Below are positions 32,365 through 37,600 of a stretch of 64,000 bases of DNA, in pieces. The number at the start of each line of letters is the position of its first letter. The first letter of the stretch is position 1. Origin of the DNA: Flavobacterium akiainvivens. Lineage in GTDB: Bacteria; Bacteroidota; Bacteroidia; Flavobacteriales; Flavobacteriaceae. The notes under the pieces are model-generated. The model made no database searches. It was not told where the DNA came from and was given only the letters and a program-made list of their open reading frames with translations. The stretch is taken from positions 2,678,781 to 2,742,780 of the forward strand of contig NZ_LIYD01000005.1 in the NCBI RefSeq assembly GCF_001278115.1, written 5' to 3'. A program made the translations under genes and the position numbers.

Positions 32365-33012
32365 ATGTTTGAAACCCGCAAAAGCACCCTTTATGTAATC
32401 CTGGCCGGGATATTTATAACCAATGCCGTAGTGGCCGAGCTTATTGGCGGCAAGCTCATCTCCGTTTTCGGGGTGCCTATGAGTGTGGGCATATTGCCGT
32501 GGCCGGTGGTATTTATTACAACCGACCTCATTAACGAATACTTTGGGCAAAAGGGCGTGCGCAGGCTCTCGCTTATTACCGCCGGGCTTATTGCCTACTG
32601 CTTCGGGCTGCTGTACCTGGCCATGAGCATACCCGCCATACAAGGCGAAGGCCTGGTTACCGATACCCAGTTCAGCGGCGTTTTCGGGCAAAGCATGTGG
32701 ATTATTGTGGGCAGTATTACAGCATTCCTCGTGTCTCAGGTTATAGACGTTACCATCTTCCATTTCGTAAAAAACAAAACCGGTAACCGCATGATATGGC
32801 TGCGCAGTACGGGCTCTACCGTAATCTCGCAGTTTTTTGACAGCTTTATTGTTTTGGGCATTGCCTTTTACCTTACCGGCAAGATGGATACCCAAACCTA
32901 CCTGCTAAGCGGCATTACGGGTTATAGCGTTAAGCTGGCCATTGCCATACTGCTTACCCCCGTTATTTACCTTGCCCACGCCCTGATAGAAAAATACATC
33001 CACAATAAATAA
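32365..33012 (+). CDS. yhhQ: Queuosine precursor transporter (YhhQ/VUT family)
   Basis: 215 residues with six predicted helices. Family features: AELIGGKLISVFGVPMSVGI near the N-terminus, FITTDLINEYFGQKGVRR (the conserved TDxxxEYxG signature), and SQFFDSFIVLGIAFYL toward the end. Members import pre-queuosine bases (preQ0/preQ1) for tRNA modification. No que genes lie nearby. The tandem repeat directly before its start may affect translation or transcription. Confidence 0.88.
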   Translation: MFETRKSTLYVILAGIFITNAVVAELIGGKLISVFGVPMSVGILPWPVVFITTDLINEYFGQKGVRRLSLITAGLIAYCFGLLYLAMSIPAIQGEGLVTDTQFSGVFGQSMWIIVGSITAFLVSQVIDVTIFHFVKNKTGNRMIWLRSTGSTVISQFFDSFIVLGIAFYLTGKMDTQTYLLSGITGYSVKLAIAILLTPVIYLAHALIEKYIHNK

Positions 33013-33091
33013 TTCCCGCAGGGCGTAAGCTTAAAATAAACCTTTGTTTTTTTTCTTTGTGCCCTTTGTGTCTTTGTGTTTTAAAACACTG

Positions 33092-33113
33092 AATCCACTT
33101 TGCAAACTAAAGG
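33092..33113. repeat. Direct repeat flanking IS110, left copy
   Basis: Identical 22 bp to 34366-34387. It is followed by ACACAAAGA here and by GGCACAAAGA at the right copy. IS110 elements normally make no or very short target duplications, so this length is unusual. Confidence 0.85.
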
Positions 33114-33125
33114 ACACAAAGATTT

Positions 33126-34160
33126 CTATGTTATCAAACAAGTAAAGTCCAATGTTTTTTGAGAGCGGTATTCATTTTTTGACAGGTAGGCTTGTTTTCT
33201 GTTTACTACCGACATTATTCTGTGAACAAGTTTATTTCGAACGGCGTTTAATACACTCATTTTATTTTTTCCTTCTGATACTTTACGTTGATAGTATTCT
33301 TTGATTTCTTCATCGAACCTTATTGATGCCATTGCAGCCAAGTGCAGTAGTTTTTTAATATTCTTATTGGCCATTTTTGATACTCGTTCCTTTTTTACTA
33401 TAGTACCGGATTGATTTTTAAAAGGCACCACTCCCGCGTAACAGGCAAGATGCCTGGCGCTCTGGAAGGATGTGAAGTTATTTGTTGCAATTATTAAATT
33501 CACAGCGCATTGTGGGTCTATACCCGGTATGGTGGTTATGAGTGCCTTGGTCTGGCTTATTTCAGGATCATTTGCAATTAACTGTTCTATCTTTTCCTCT
33601 GTTTGTTTTATAGATTTAACCAAAGCATTTAATACCTGTTTAAAGAATTTGGAGAGTATTTGATATTCAAAAGCATCATGCGTCTTAGCTTCTTTCAGGC
33701 GGTTCTCTAAAGCTGTTTTTTGTCCCAGCATAGCTTCACGTACTTTGTTTAAGACACCAAGTTGTTTAATAACTTCTGTGGCCTCACGGTAAGGAATAAG
33801 CTTATCATTATATCGGATGGCATATTGGGCAATCCGCAACGCATCTTTACGATCGTCTTTCCCTCTCATATCCGTTGTGGCCCATTTGATTTTAAGGGCA
33901 TGTTCAACCCATAAGGGCACATCCAATTCGGAACAAACAACTTCTAAAGGCCTGTTGTAAATCCCTGTGTTTTCACAACATACTAACACTTCTCCCCTGG
34001 TTATCCTGTAAGTATTTAATACTGCTTTTATAAAAGCTCTAATACTTTTCCTGTTGTTTAGAATTACCCTCTCCTGGAGTAATTCCAGCTGATTGTTTAA
34101 AATGGCAATGTCCAGTTTAGATTTGGAAACATCAATTCCAATTACGTACTTTTGTTTCAT
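33126..34160 (-). CDS. IS110-family transposase (DEDD RuvC-like recombinase)
   Basis: 344 residues from ATG 34160 (MKQKYVIGIDVSKSKLDIAI); an ATG at 34181 would add seven residues and intrude into the structured leader. The N-terminal DEDD domain shows Asp in GIDVSKSKLD, Glu in VCCENTGIY and the paired acidic DDRKDALRIA. A coiled-coil middle (LENRLKEAKTHD... IEQLIANDPE) leads to the C-terminal Tnp_20 domain TIPGIDPQCAVNLI, FQSARHLACYAGVVPFKNQS and KKERVSKMANKNIKKLLHLA, which carries the catalytic Ser region. The protein seems complete, so the copy may be active. Confidence 0.95.
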   Translation of the reverse strand: MKQKYVIGIDVSKSKLDIAILNNQLELLQERVILNNRKSIRAFIKAVLNTYRITRGEVLVCCENTGIYNRPLEVVCSELDVPLWVEHALKIKWATTDMRGKDDRKDALRIAQYAIRYNDKLIPYREATEVIKQLGVLNKVREAMLGQKTALENRLKEAKTHDAFEYQILSKFFKQVLNALVKSIKQTEEKIEQLIANDPEISQTKALITTIPGIDPQCAVNLIIATNNFTSFQSARHLACYAGVVPFKNQSGTIVKKERVSKMANKNIKKLLHLAAMASIRFDEEIKEYYQRKVSEGKNKMSVLNAVRNKLVHRIMSVVNRKQAYLSKNEYRSQKTLDFTCLIT

Positions 34161-34174
34161 ATTGAATATTTTAT

Positions 34175-34330
34175 TCCACAAAGAGAGTGTTATCTAAGTC
34201 CTTGATAATAGGTCGTTAACCTAAATTTCTATTATGATCTTGCTCTCTAAGAAACAGGGTACGTAATCTTCGTATAGGCCTCGGAATCCTTTGACACAAA
34301 TTGATTCACCCTGTTTCTTGTGGAATGATT
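34175..34330 (-). ncRNA. Candidate bridge RNA in the IS110 non-coding end
   Basis: On the transposase strand, a 12-bp perfect inverted repeat (AAGAAACAGGGT / ACCCTGTTTCTT; 34308-34319 with 34249-34260) encloses 47 bases. Inside is a smaller hairpin with GAATC/GATTC arms and loop text containing TTTGTGTC. Closer to the transposase a second hairpin forms from GAGAG (34246-34242) with CTCTC and inner ATAAT/ATTAT and AGGT/ACCT pairs. Two structured internal loops upstream of the recombinase is the known layout of IS110 bridge RNAs. The boundaries are estimates. Confidence 0.5.
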
Positions 34331-34365
34331 AATAACAATAAATATACTTCGGAATACTATTAATC

Positions 34366-34387
34366 AATCCACTTTGCAAACTAAAGG
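34366..34387. repeat. Direct repeat flanking IS110, right copy
   Basis: Identical 22 bp to 33092-33113. The spacer 34388-34677 beyond it has no gene; it holds a GCCT(N10)AGGC-type hairpin at 34582-34604 and the promoter of the next gene. Confidence 0.85.
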
Positions 34388-34606
34388 GGCACAAAGAAGA
34401 GGTACATCATATGAATATACAAGACATTTAATTTGTTTTAAAATCTTGGTATTCCTTGTATCATTGCGTTTAAAAATCTCTCCACACCAAACATACCAAC
34501 TTACCTCCTCTAAACGTTATACTGTAAGTATACGCCTGCAAACATTATGCACCCTTAAACCACCTCCTCAAATTGTTGTAAAAGCCTCAATATTTTCAGG
34601 CTTTAA

Positions 34607-34639
34607 TTGAATATTTTCTAAAAGAAACACCTATATTTG
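34607..34639 (+). promoter_or_regulatory. Promoter of the TraB/GumN-like gene
   Basis: TTG at 34607-34609 and TATATTTG at 34632-34639 match the Bacteroidota pattern with 22-base spacing. The TTG start codon is 39 bases downstream. Confidence 0.5.
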
Positions 34640-34677
34640 GGTTACTTAGTTTACCAACTCCTAAATCTTATTTTCAA

Positions 34678-37600
34678 TTGAAAAGATTAGTCCTTCTGCT
34701 GTTATTATCTGCTACCTCACTATTTGCACAGGAAAAAAAATACCAGGGCCTGCTGTGGGAAGTTTCCGGAAACGGGCTTAACAAAAACTCCTACCTGTAT
34801 GGCTCCATGCACGTTAGTGACAAGGTGTCCTACCACCTTAGCGACGCCTTTTTTACCCACCTGCTCAATGCCGATATGGTAGCTAACGAAAGCGAACCCA
34901 GCACCTGGATGGACCTCATGGGCCTTATGGGGCGCGGGCCTTTCCGTGGCAAGCTGTATGCATCGTTCTACATGCAGCCTACAGCAAAAACTGATTTGTA
35001 CCCGCTGTTCCGCAGTAAGGATTACACCATAAACCACCTGCTTTTCCGCACCAATTCCTACCAGGAAGAATACCAGGAAGATACCTACCTGGATATGTTT
35101 ATATACCGCACCGGCCGCAAGTATGGCAAAAAAACCGTGGGGCTTGAAGACACCAAAACGTCGATGCTCAACATAATGAACATACCCTTTAAAGATGCCC
35201 GCCCCAGCGAAGAAAACATGGTAGCCATACAAAAGCTTCTTAAAGACACTGATTATGAAGAAGCCATGATGAACTACTACCGCGATAAAGACCTGGATAT
35301 GCTCGACTCGCTTACCAACCTTTCAAGCGGCGAAAAATACCTTAAGGTAATGCTGTGGGACCGCAATACGGTTATGGTTAAAAGCATCGACTCGCTTATG
35401 CGCACCGGCAGCCTTTTTGCAGCCGTGGGCGCGGCGCACCTGCCCGGCAAACATGGCATTATAGAAATGCTGCGCACCAAAGGCTATACCGTAAAGGCCG
35501 TACCGGCTACGTATACTGATAAGGGTAAGGCCGACAAGGAAAAGATAGACAACTACTTTACCAAGCCTAAATTCAAGACCTACACCAGCCCAGATGGCGT
35601 AGTAAGCCTGCCCGTGATAGACGGCCCCGTGATTGAAATTGAAACCGACGTGCAAAGCCCTGACCTGGCTAACGGCGGCTACATAAACGTAAAGCGCCTC
35701 CTGCTTAACGATTACCTCAAGAAAGACTACAAGGCGTTCAACCCGCTTTCGCTGGATAGCTTGTTTTACGAAAACATTCCCGGCAAAATACTCGAAAAGA
35801 AATTCAGCACCGCCGATGGCTACAAGCTGTATGACATAAAAAGTGTTACCAAAACCGGGAACGCCCAGCGCTACAGGTACTACATTACCCCCATGGAAAT
35901 TATTATGGTTAGCATGGCGGGCGAAAAAAACTATGTGCGCCAGTTTGAGAACGATGTTTTTAACAACCTTAAAATTAAGGTAAACGGTACCGCATGGGTA
36001 AAAACAGGCCCGCAGCGCGGCGGCTTTACCATAAACATGCCGGGCTATTATGTAGCCACCGGCGAAAAAACCAACGCCAAAGTAACTGAAGACGTTAGCT
36101 TTTATGGCTATGATGCAGCCACCAGGGCCAACTTTTTTGTGGAAGAACGCACCATAGGCGATAACGAAGCCCTGGAAGATACCGCCTTTGAGCTAAGGCG
36201 CATGCATACTGAATTCTACACCCAACTGGGCATAGACAGCACCCATGTACAGGTAGATGCTACCAAAACAACGTATACATCAAGCGCCTCTTTAACCGAA
36301 CGCGGGCTAAGGCTTAAGTCGGTTATAAACGGGCCTAAGTACTTCCTTATAGGCAGCATAGGCGCCACCGAGGCCGCGGCTGACAGCTTTATAAACTCGT
36401 TTGCGCTAACCCCGGTTAAAGATGCTACAGATTACAAAGTATTTAAAGACACCATTGGCCTGTACAGTGTACAAATTGCACGCGCACAAAACGAAAGGCT
36501 TGATTTTGAACCCGCAAACCGCAGCCGTTATGGTTATGATGACGAAGAGAAAAACGTGTTTAAAGAGCTGTATGGCAACAGGCAGTTCAGTATGCCAAAT
36601 GGCCAGGTAGTAGATGTGTATTACCACAAATACCACAGGCACACCAGCATTAAGAGCATAGACAGTATTTGGGGCAAGCTTAAAAAATACATGCTTGAAG
36701 AAGACAACCTTGCAAATATTGATAATGATGCCATGGCAGTAGCTACAGATAGTATTGCGGCAATACCGGGCTTTTCAATGGGCGATTATACCGTTAAGCT
36801 GGGTTCAATCTGGGATAAGTACATCAAGCCTAAAAAAGCCAAACTACAGCTTATAGACGAAAAACAGGAGTTTGTAGAAAGCGGCAAATACTACCAGTAT
36901 ACCGCCACCCTAATTAGCGACCGCAGCCAGCAGGCCATAAAGGTTAAGGCCCTGCACCGCAACGGCACCACCTATGTTATTAATACCCTTGTAGAAAAAG
37001 GCTACAAAAGCGGCGACCCGGCCATCGAAAAGTTGTTTAACAGCTTTACCCTGCTAAACGACCCCAAGGCCGAAGACCTGCCTGCCGACCGCTTTAAGCT
37101 CTGGATGGAAGACGCACAAAGCGAGCACGACAGCATACGCAGCAGTGCCCTGGCTTCTATCAGCAGCCTGGAACTTACCAAAGAAGACAGCAAAGCCCTG
37201 GAAAACTTCATAGATAATTTTGAGTTTGAAGCCGAAGAAACCGAAGCCCTTGTAGAGCTGTATGCAAAACTGGGCAGGCTGAAAGACGAATCTTCTATTC
37301 CGTTTTTTGAAAGGCAATACAAGCAGGAAGACGTTAACGCCACGGTACAGTTTGCCGTGCTCGATGCCCTTACAAACTACGAAAGCAAGGCCGCCTACAA
37401 AAAAATAGGCGAACTTATGGAGTTTGACCTGCCCATTAGCGATAACAGCTATGAGGTGCAAAGCCTGTTCAGCAGCTTTGAGAACGACGCCAAAAACAGC
37501 GCTGTACTGTTTCCTGATGTGCTGCAATACTACAGCATTCCGGAATACCAGGGGCCGGTGGTAAGCTTTGCCTCTACCCTTATTGAAGAAAAAGAGGTAA

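Follow-up and report, generated by a model that had tools for sequence, protein, structure and literature searches.

An IS110-family element and its copies

The window, a stretch of 64,000 nucleotides from Flavobacterium akiainvivens, carries on its minus strand an IS110-family element, whose features are collected in Table 1. Four assembled copies were found in the host genome (A, the window copy, and B, C and D), and their alignment fixes both element ends. The transposase matches the Pfam domains DEDD_Tnp_IS110 (1.4e-19) and Transposase_20 (1e-24), as well as NCBIfam NF033542 ('IS110 family RNA-guided transposase'; 172.5 bits, cutoff 140); its best solved-structure match is the ISCro4 recombinase (PDB 9t56, E 2e-18), with IS621 at 2.4e-16. 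Residues D9, E62, D102, D105 and S250 (numbered without the initial Met) are invariant in five aligned transposase sequences and align to identical residues of IS621, for which the catalytic list given in PMC11208158 was used. The protein thus combines a DEDD RuvC-like domain with a Transposase_20 domain carrying the catalytic Ser, and the element combines a long left end (LE) with a non-coding RNA region (226 nt) and a short right end (RE; 5 nt past the stop codon), as in the IS110 group. In the IS1111 group the bridge RNA lies in the RE; here the predicted RNA lies in the LE, and the non-coding RE is 5 nt long.

Where sister copies B, C and D, IS621 and solved IS110 proteins have PGIG, the window copy reads PGID; a substitution in this conserved motif may leave the copy impaired or weak. 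At loci L005 (about 1527) and L024 (about 1535) a single N separates the element end from the genomic flank, and these are probably two further unassembled, collapsed copies. All six insertion sites seen in the host genome lie inside TTTGTG-type repeats, the sequence spelled by the loop segment TTTGTGTC. Such repeats (CTTTGTGGCCTTTGTGTCTTTGTGTTTTAAA-like; e.g., window 33049-33092) occur at many sites of this genome. A 21-nt second-LE remnant, CTTTAGTTTGCAAAGTGGATT, abuts the right flank at 33092-33112 and is followed by repeat sequence; it is read as an older insertion into the same repeat, mostly deleted. In viral contigs, 10 stretches matched a pattern and none encodes a relative, and in 2884 plasmid records every match was below 60% identity.

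Table 1. Features of the element and of its predicted bridge RNA (window positions)
Feature	Position	Strand	Basis or remark
IS110-family element	33121..34386	-	recombination points are the breaks in the four-copy alignment; LE first base 34386; RE last base 33121 is the shared C
DEDD transposase/recombinase, 344 aa	33126..34160	-	Pfam, NCBIfam and PDB matches
LE terminus CTTTAGTTTG	34377..34386	-	four-copy alignment; includes TTAGTTTG, an imperfect -7 box of Bacteroidota type
RE terminus CATAGAAATC, comprising the left donor and the TC of the donor core	33121..33130	-	four-copy alignment
Right target flank TTTGTGTC	33113..33120	-	
Left target flank TTTGTGCCC	34387..34395	-	one-base slide needed to fit LTG
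Possible -33 element TTG, once the circle joins RE to LE	33139..33141	-	cluster spacing
Predicted bridge RNA, ends approximate	34173..34372	-	fold z -3.65; covariation
5' stem-loop	34320..34372	-	arms 34320-34334 / 34358-34372, 93% complementary
Closing helix, 5' arm ATTCCAC	34320..34326	-	covariation
Closing helix, 3' arm GTGGAAT	34173..34179	-	covariation
Target-binding loop (TBL) stem, 5' arm	34308..34319	-	perfect repeat; covariation
TBL stem, 3' arm	34249..34260	-	perfect repeat; covariation
Left target guide (LTG) TTTGTGTC	34293..34300	-	last 8 nt of left flanks, copies B and D; cluster test
Right target guide (RTG) UACGAAGA	34267..34274	-	complementary to TC-TTTGTG with G-U allowed
Triplet AUU, putative handshake guide	34265..34267	-	complementary to donor positions 8, 7, 6
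Donor-binding loop (DBL) stem, 5' arm GAGAG	34243..34247	-	covariation
DBL stem, 3' arm CTCTC	34183..34187	-	covariation
Left donor guide (LDG) ATAGAAATT	34224..34232	-	matches RE ATAGAAATC
Right donor guide (RDG) UAUCAAGGA	34199..34207	-	by inspection, pairing possible with TCCTT and TA if two nt loop out, the IS621 arrangement

Predicted fold of the left end

Bridge RNAs were predicted in 85.7% of IS110s (Durrant et al., PMC11208160), and one is therefore expected in an IS110 left end. An earlier note on this DNA had described a 12-bp perfect inverted repeat and a second nested hairpin in the non-coding end, and had proposed that this end folds and encodes an RNA. Both structures are present as described: the arms of the first (34249-34260 / 34308-34319) are 100% complementary, with 47 nt between them, and the second pairs 34182-34187 with 34243-34248 around an inner ATAATAG/CTATTAT (34205-34211 / 34229-34235). 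The interval noted was slightly short upstream, where the 5' stem-loop and the element end at 34386 extend past 34365. The predicted minimum free energy of RNA from 34161-34386 (minus strand) was -56.2 kcal/mol, compared with -40.35 +/- 4.34 in 200 dinucleotide shuffles, none of which was as low (z -3.65). A search of 32900-34700 against Rfam returned no family at E <= 1. What was noted as an 'inner hairpin' in the first loop is for the most part complementarity between LTG and RTG, which we read as a by-product of the direct-repeat target TTTGTG-TC-TTTGTG. The 5' arm of the predicted closing helix uses nucleotides that also form the base of the 5' stem-loop, and so the two structures would compete.

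The 3' arm of the LE structure ends 12 nt before the ATG, and the closing helix adjoins the start codon, as would suit a structure that mainly controls transposase translation. We consider this quite unlikely as the main function, since it leaves the guide-flank matching described below unexplained; it could be an extra role of a bridge RNA.

Conservation and covariation of the structure

Relatives whose transposases are 49-63% identical have the same LE layout. RNAalifold, applied to nine sequences (the window copy, copy D and seven sequences of relatives), predicted a closing helix that encloses two stem-loops, with 39 pairs, 9 of them with compensatory change. A covariance model, R1, was built from ten sequences (eight from relatives, plus the window copy and copy D); its scores in the own genome (179.5-179.8 bits) are high by construction, since two of the copies there went into the model. 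At E <= 0.001, R1 had matches in 14 of the 397 genomes searched from the family and in 14 of the 395 from the order; the two counts overlap in the own genome, G274, G292 and G405, and they include a source of model rows, G431. At E <= 0.01 the structure was found at 79 of 99 loci, beside distant IS110 transposases; nine of these 79 loci hold model rows and L079 is a near copy of one. The 99 loci are L004 and 98 of the 138 in L046-L183, from which L046-L074, L086, L107-L109, L111, L135, L136 and L138-L141 were omitted. An ORF of at least 300 aa adjoins the match in 32 of 41 loci examined from two RNA-model searches, many of these loci being copies of one element.

Fifty-six rows from 55 sources (one row is a second, minus-strand match in L087) were aligned. 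In this model-fitted alignment 92.3% of cells are paired, compared with 54.5% after shuffling, and covariation is 0.935 versus 0.228 in shuffles; when partner columns are slid by 1-3, covariation falls to at most 0.162. All 34 pairs have changes on both sides, a count that is weak on its own because shuffles reach 31.3. In the closing helix, 7 of 7 pairs are changed on both sides over the 56 sequences and 88.3% of cells are paired. Because the alignment had been fitted to the model, an alignment-free comparison of arms was added, using 62 clusters: the own 3' arm exceeded the mean of borrowed arms in 59 clusters for the TBL, 54 for the closing helix and 52 for the DBL. For this and the following tests, sequences were clustered at a similarity above 0.88 (0.85 in the arm comparison), and each cluster contributed one row. 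A conserved structure with two internal loops, as in bridge RNAs, was thus observed.

Target guides and insertion-site flanks

Within the host genome, LTG TTTGTGTC equals the left flank of copies B and D and has two differences, both allowing U-G, in copy C. The left flank of copy A, TTTGTGCCC, has to be slid by one base to fit LTG because the TTTGTG units of its site are 3 nt apart. RTG UACGAAGA has one mismatch at the right flanks of copies C and D (TTGGTG). Among relatives, right guide UACGGAGA accompanies right flank TCTCTGTG in L075, UGCAGAGA accompanies TCTCTGCG in L077 and L078, and UGCGAAGA accompanies TCTTTGCG in L080; the predicted right guide is changing in step with its flank across relatives.

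Permutation tests were carried out with ends located by motifs (CTTTA[GC] for LE; ATAG-type ending in C for RE). Both junctions could be read in 56 of 123 bRNA records (120 matches and own copies A-C), and these 56 formed 28 clusters (25 for the right flank). In this smaller set, z was 14.7 for LTG against the left flank and 11.4 for RTG against the right flank, each with 0 of 20,000 shuffles reaching the observed value. In the larger sets, LTG matched the left flank at 7.80 positions versus 4.64 permuted (55 clusters; z 20.6), and RTG matched the right flank at 4.50 of 6 versus 2.13 (43 clusters; z 14.9), again with 0 of 20,000 shuffles in both cases. A preliminary right-flank permutation, done in a loose register and without ACATAG right ends, gave z 3.7 and is superseded. 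Control loop regions compared with the left flank gave z 0.3, 2.2 and 2.3, two of the three being slightly above null. The own guide was uniquely best for the left flank in only 26 of the 55 clusters of the larger test, where many clusters share guides; it was not uniquely best in 9 of the 28 clusters (L075, L077, L213, L144, L172, L114, L131, L093 and L215), near relatives L075, L077 and L213 among them, and the guide of L079 matches its left flank poorly.

The first loop would therefore pair with both strands of the target, and it covaries with the insertion sites. The earlier note had proposed to look for the structure with a covariance model and to compare the loops with insertion sites across copies, and both comparisons bore it out; neither a lack of covariation nor loops unrelated to their flanks, which it would have counted against an RNA, was found. 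DNA palindromes, too, are kept by compensatory changes, and the RNA is a prediction from sequence, so that the inverted repeats might instead serve the element end at the level of DNA, in binding or regulation (as transposase sites or cruciforms), with no RNA made. Under that explanation one would not expect two loop segments, fixed in position and opposite in sense, to reproduce the left and right flanks of diverged elements, and we regard it as extremely improbable. The match of guide and flank across diverged elements argues decisively for a bridge RNA.

Other Bacteroidota IS110s, at loci L214, L215 and L117, lie at sites reading CTCGTTCCTCGAAATGACA, CTATCGTCGAAATGACA and CCTTCGACAAGCTCAGGATGACA. 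Judging from the multi-copy cases, elements of the Bacteroidota IS110 branch may commonly home to intergenic repeats.

Donor guides and putative handshake nucleotides

LDG equals donor positions 1-7 exactly in 51 of 54 clusters (mean 6.96 versus 6.19 permuted; 0 of 5000 permutations). The second loop thus matches the donor, i.e., the RE-LE junction, across clusters for LDG and by inspection of the window copy only for RDG. Natural covariation accordingly extends to the predicted LTG, RTG and LDG; for RDG, a pairing potential is seen in the window copy. These data bear on whether the working product could be a short seekRNA with a target loop only, like the 74-nt seekRNA of ISEc21, the second hairpin being a processing scaffold. 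A 58-nt RNA from the ISEc21 NCR is sufficient for transposition (Siddiquee et al., PMC11187229). Here, the donor-loop stems covary as well and LDG tracks RE variants, which makes a seekRNA-only product unlikely, if less so than the other alternatives considered.

The triplet at and just after the RTG end matches donor position d8 in 50 of 50 clusters and d7 in 49 of 50 (nulls 30.9 and 31.0), and d6 is near-constant across clusters. The TBL motif follows the donor class (n=50): GATT occurs with AATC in 33 clusters, GTAT with ATAC in 10 and GCAT with ATGC in 2, with five exceptions. Both the RE classes (AATC, ATGC, ATAC, TATC) and the TBL motifs (GATT, GCAT, GTAT, GATA, GACT) were preset lists, the pairing between them not being imposed. 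The lists were widened after the GTAT class suggested ATAC, and the expectation of a GTAT-ATAC pairing was recorded before ATAC ends were seen. Four of the 54 clusters with a readable RE have no TBL motif and lie outside the d6-d8 and RTG tests. Mapped on a transposase tree, the distribution of donor classes takes 4 changes to explain, one of them a switch to ATAC within the ATGC group (L098); independent donor-class events are therefore few.

In the reciprocal test, on 54 clusters, target t8 matched the nucleotide after RDG in 37 (null 24.9; 1 of 5000 permutations) and t7 matched in 33 (null 24.1; 22 of 5000), and no signal was observed at t6 and t5 (772 and 2564 of 5000).

Core of recombination

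At left junctions t9 is C in all 55 clusters, the preceding base being T in 23, G in 13, A in 12 and C in 7. The C at d9 was imposed by the RE motif; the C at t9 was not. Position 8 is the same in target and donor in 18 of the 45 clusters with both junctions, and differs in 27. LTG follows target t8 in 38 of the 45 clusters (of 55) in which the register is fixed, i.e., 5.5 or more of 7 positions match at t1-t7. Right flanks start with G, A, C or T, and so the base after the shared C is not conserved. Instead of the CT dinucleotide common to target and donor in IS621-type cores, only the C is shared.

We first read the core as CT, each target having carried an additional C. The left junctions (...CCTTTAG) do contain CT, and an ordinary IS621-like core, with targets of the form GTGTC-CT-TTGTG, would call for no core variant. 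All 15 unoccupied repeats of the own genome read TTTGTGTC-TTKGTGTTT, with the extra base in none of them, and three G827 repeats shaped like the target of that genome's copies read CGTC-GAAATGACA, with one base in a gap where 0-2 were allowed. From these repeats it follows that target and donor share the C, and the first reading was rejected on their account. Since the base after the C is, in addition, not conserved, an ordinary CT core seems very unlikely. The pattern used for the G827 repeats was unable to detect sites of the kind that the G736 copies occupy, and its three matches in G736 are another repeat form; a pattern search for an unoccupied site in G843 found none. With a single-C core the circle junction would read ...CATAGAAATC-CTTTAGTTTG..., and with a CT core it would read ...GAAATCTTTAG....

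Comparison with known systems and proposed mechanism

The IS621 RNA is described as 177 nt long, with a 5' stem-loop, a TBL at 34-98 and a DBL at 110-177. The present element resembles IS621 in its homologous DEDD and Ser recombinase, in the placement of the predicted RNA in the LE, in the order of 5' stem-loop, target loop and donor loop, in having LTG, RTG, LDG and RDG, in its putative handshake nucleotides and in its REP-like targets. In the IS621 RDG nine RNA nucleotides face seven donor bases, two being flipped out (PMC11208160, PMC11208158); the window RDG, UA(UC)AAGGA, fits this pattern by inspection, with two looped-out nucleotides possible. The differences are as follows. A covarying closing helix joins both loops here, whereas none appears in the text passages on IS621 that were consulted, and the published figures may show some variants. 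In IS621, which prefers a CT core common to both DNAs, T9 is almost invariant and C8 less so, and the handshake guides lie opposite positions 7 and 6; here, it is a C that is invariant at core position 9, and position 8 is not common to target and donor. Finally, RTG is longer here than the 4 nt of IS621, as it is in some orthologues (PMC11208160). Because the closing helix and the one-C core differ from the IS621 descriptions, we class the predicted RNA as a variant of known bridge RNAs. With the ISEc21 seekRNA (Siddiquee et al. 2024, PMC11187229) it shares a position in an upstream NCR, both target halves in one RNA with the bottom-strand match first, and a promoter at the circle junction (a candidate here); in contrast to the short target RNA described there, donor-loop pairing is also supported here. 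The closest solved structure is that of the ISCro4 recombinase. The defining features of IS110-group bridge RNAs that were tested are, as far as sequence comparison goes, present except for the CT core. The remark of the earlier note that flavobacterial bridge RNAs are little studied fits our literature search, among whose texts no paper on such RNAs, or describing the present IS110 branch, was found.

Taken as a whole, the data are best explained if the LE encodes a bridge RNA working by an IS621-like pairing logic, which we hold to be very probable. Excision would give a circle joining RE to LE, and the RE-LE junction would probably form a Bacteroidota-type promoter driving LE transcription. 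The bridge RNA would be bound by the DEDD recombinase, its LTG TTTGTGTC and RTG UACGAAGA pairing with the two strands of the TTTGTG-repeat target and its LDG and RDG with the RE-LE junction. Recombination would take place at a core with one C common to target and donor at position 9, as the junctions and unoccupied repeats support. Target position 8 would be read by LTG. Donor positions 8 and 7 are complementary to the nucleotides at the RTG end and just after it, and covary with them; by analogy with the IS621 handshake guides, these pairs would form only after strand exchange.

For the Bacteroidota IS110 branch as a whole, we think it somewhat better than an even chance that the core is split and one nucleotide long, position 8 being set separately by LTG for the target and by the handshake nucleotide at the RTG end for the donor, and that the closing helix brings both loops together at a single three-way junction, where IS621 is described with an open layout. 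If so, a one-C core with the neighbouring position encoded for each DNA would allow a wider choice of sites, and the covariation would be evolutionary evidence for a handshake step in which RNA pairs with the partner DNA after strand exchange. The branch offers many natural guide-target pairs.

Candidate promoter at the circle junction

Promoters of Bacteroidetes have the form TTTG/TAnnTTTG (PMC6847099). In 44 of 46 clusters the RE-LE junction has a TTG followed, 17-23 nt further on, by the TA of a TAnnTTTG-like box, an arrangement that resembles these promoters; for 36 of the TTGs the distance is exactly 20 nt. The circle junction probably forms a Bacteroidota-type promoter that would transcribe the LE. 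Many LE -7 boxes carry a G at a position where promoters of F. johnsoniae, as reported in PMC6847099, almost never do, and the -7 box of the window copy is imperfect; for these reasons the junction promoter is a lead, not proof.

Tandem and isolated structures at other loci

At L195, L203 and L207 (all G156), R1 matches were found with no transposase by tblastn at E 1e-5 in the surrounding DNA examined; these are possible orphan bridge RNAs. Two bridge-RNA-like structures in tandem lie upstream of one IS110 transposase in L096 (2499-2653 and 2781-2939; 40.5 and 56.0 bits) and in L103 (2509-2660 and 2783-2940), and weaker cases were seen in L104, L110, L129, L157 and L192. At the tandem loci the second LTG resembles, by eye, the left flank TTGCTATTC, and the right flanks do not match. 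Such loci are possibly dual-RNA elements.
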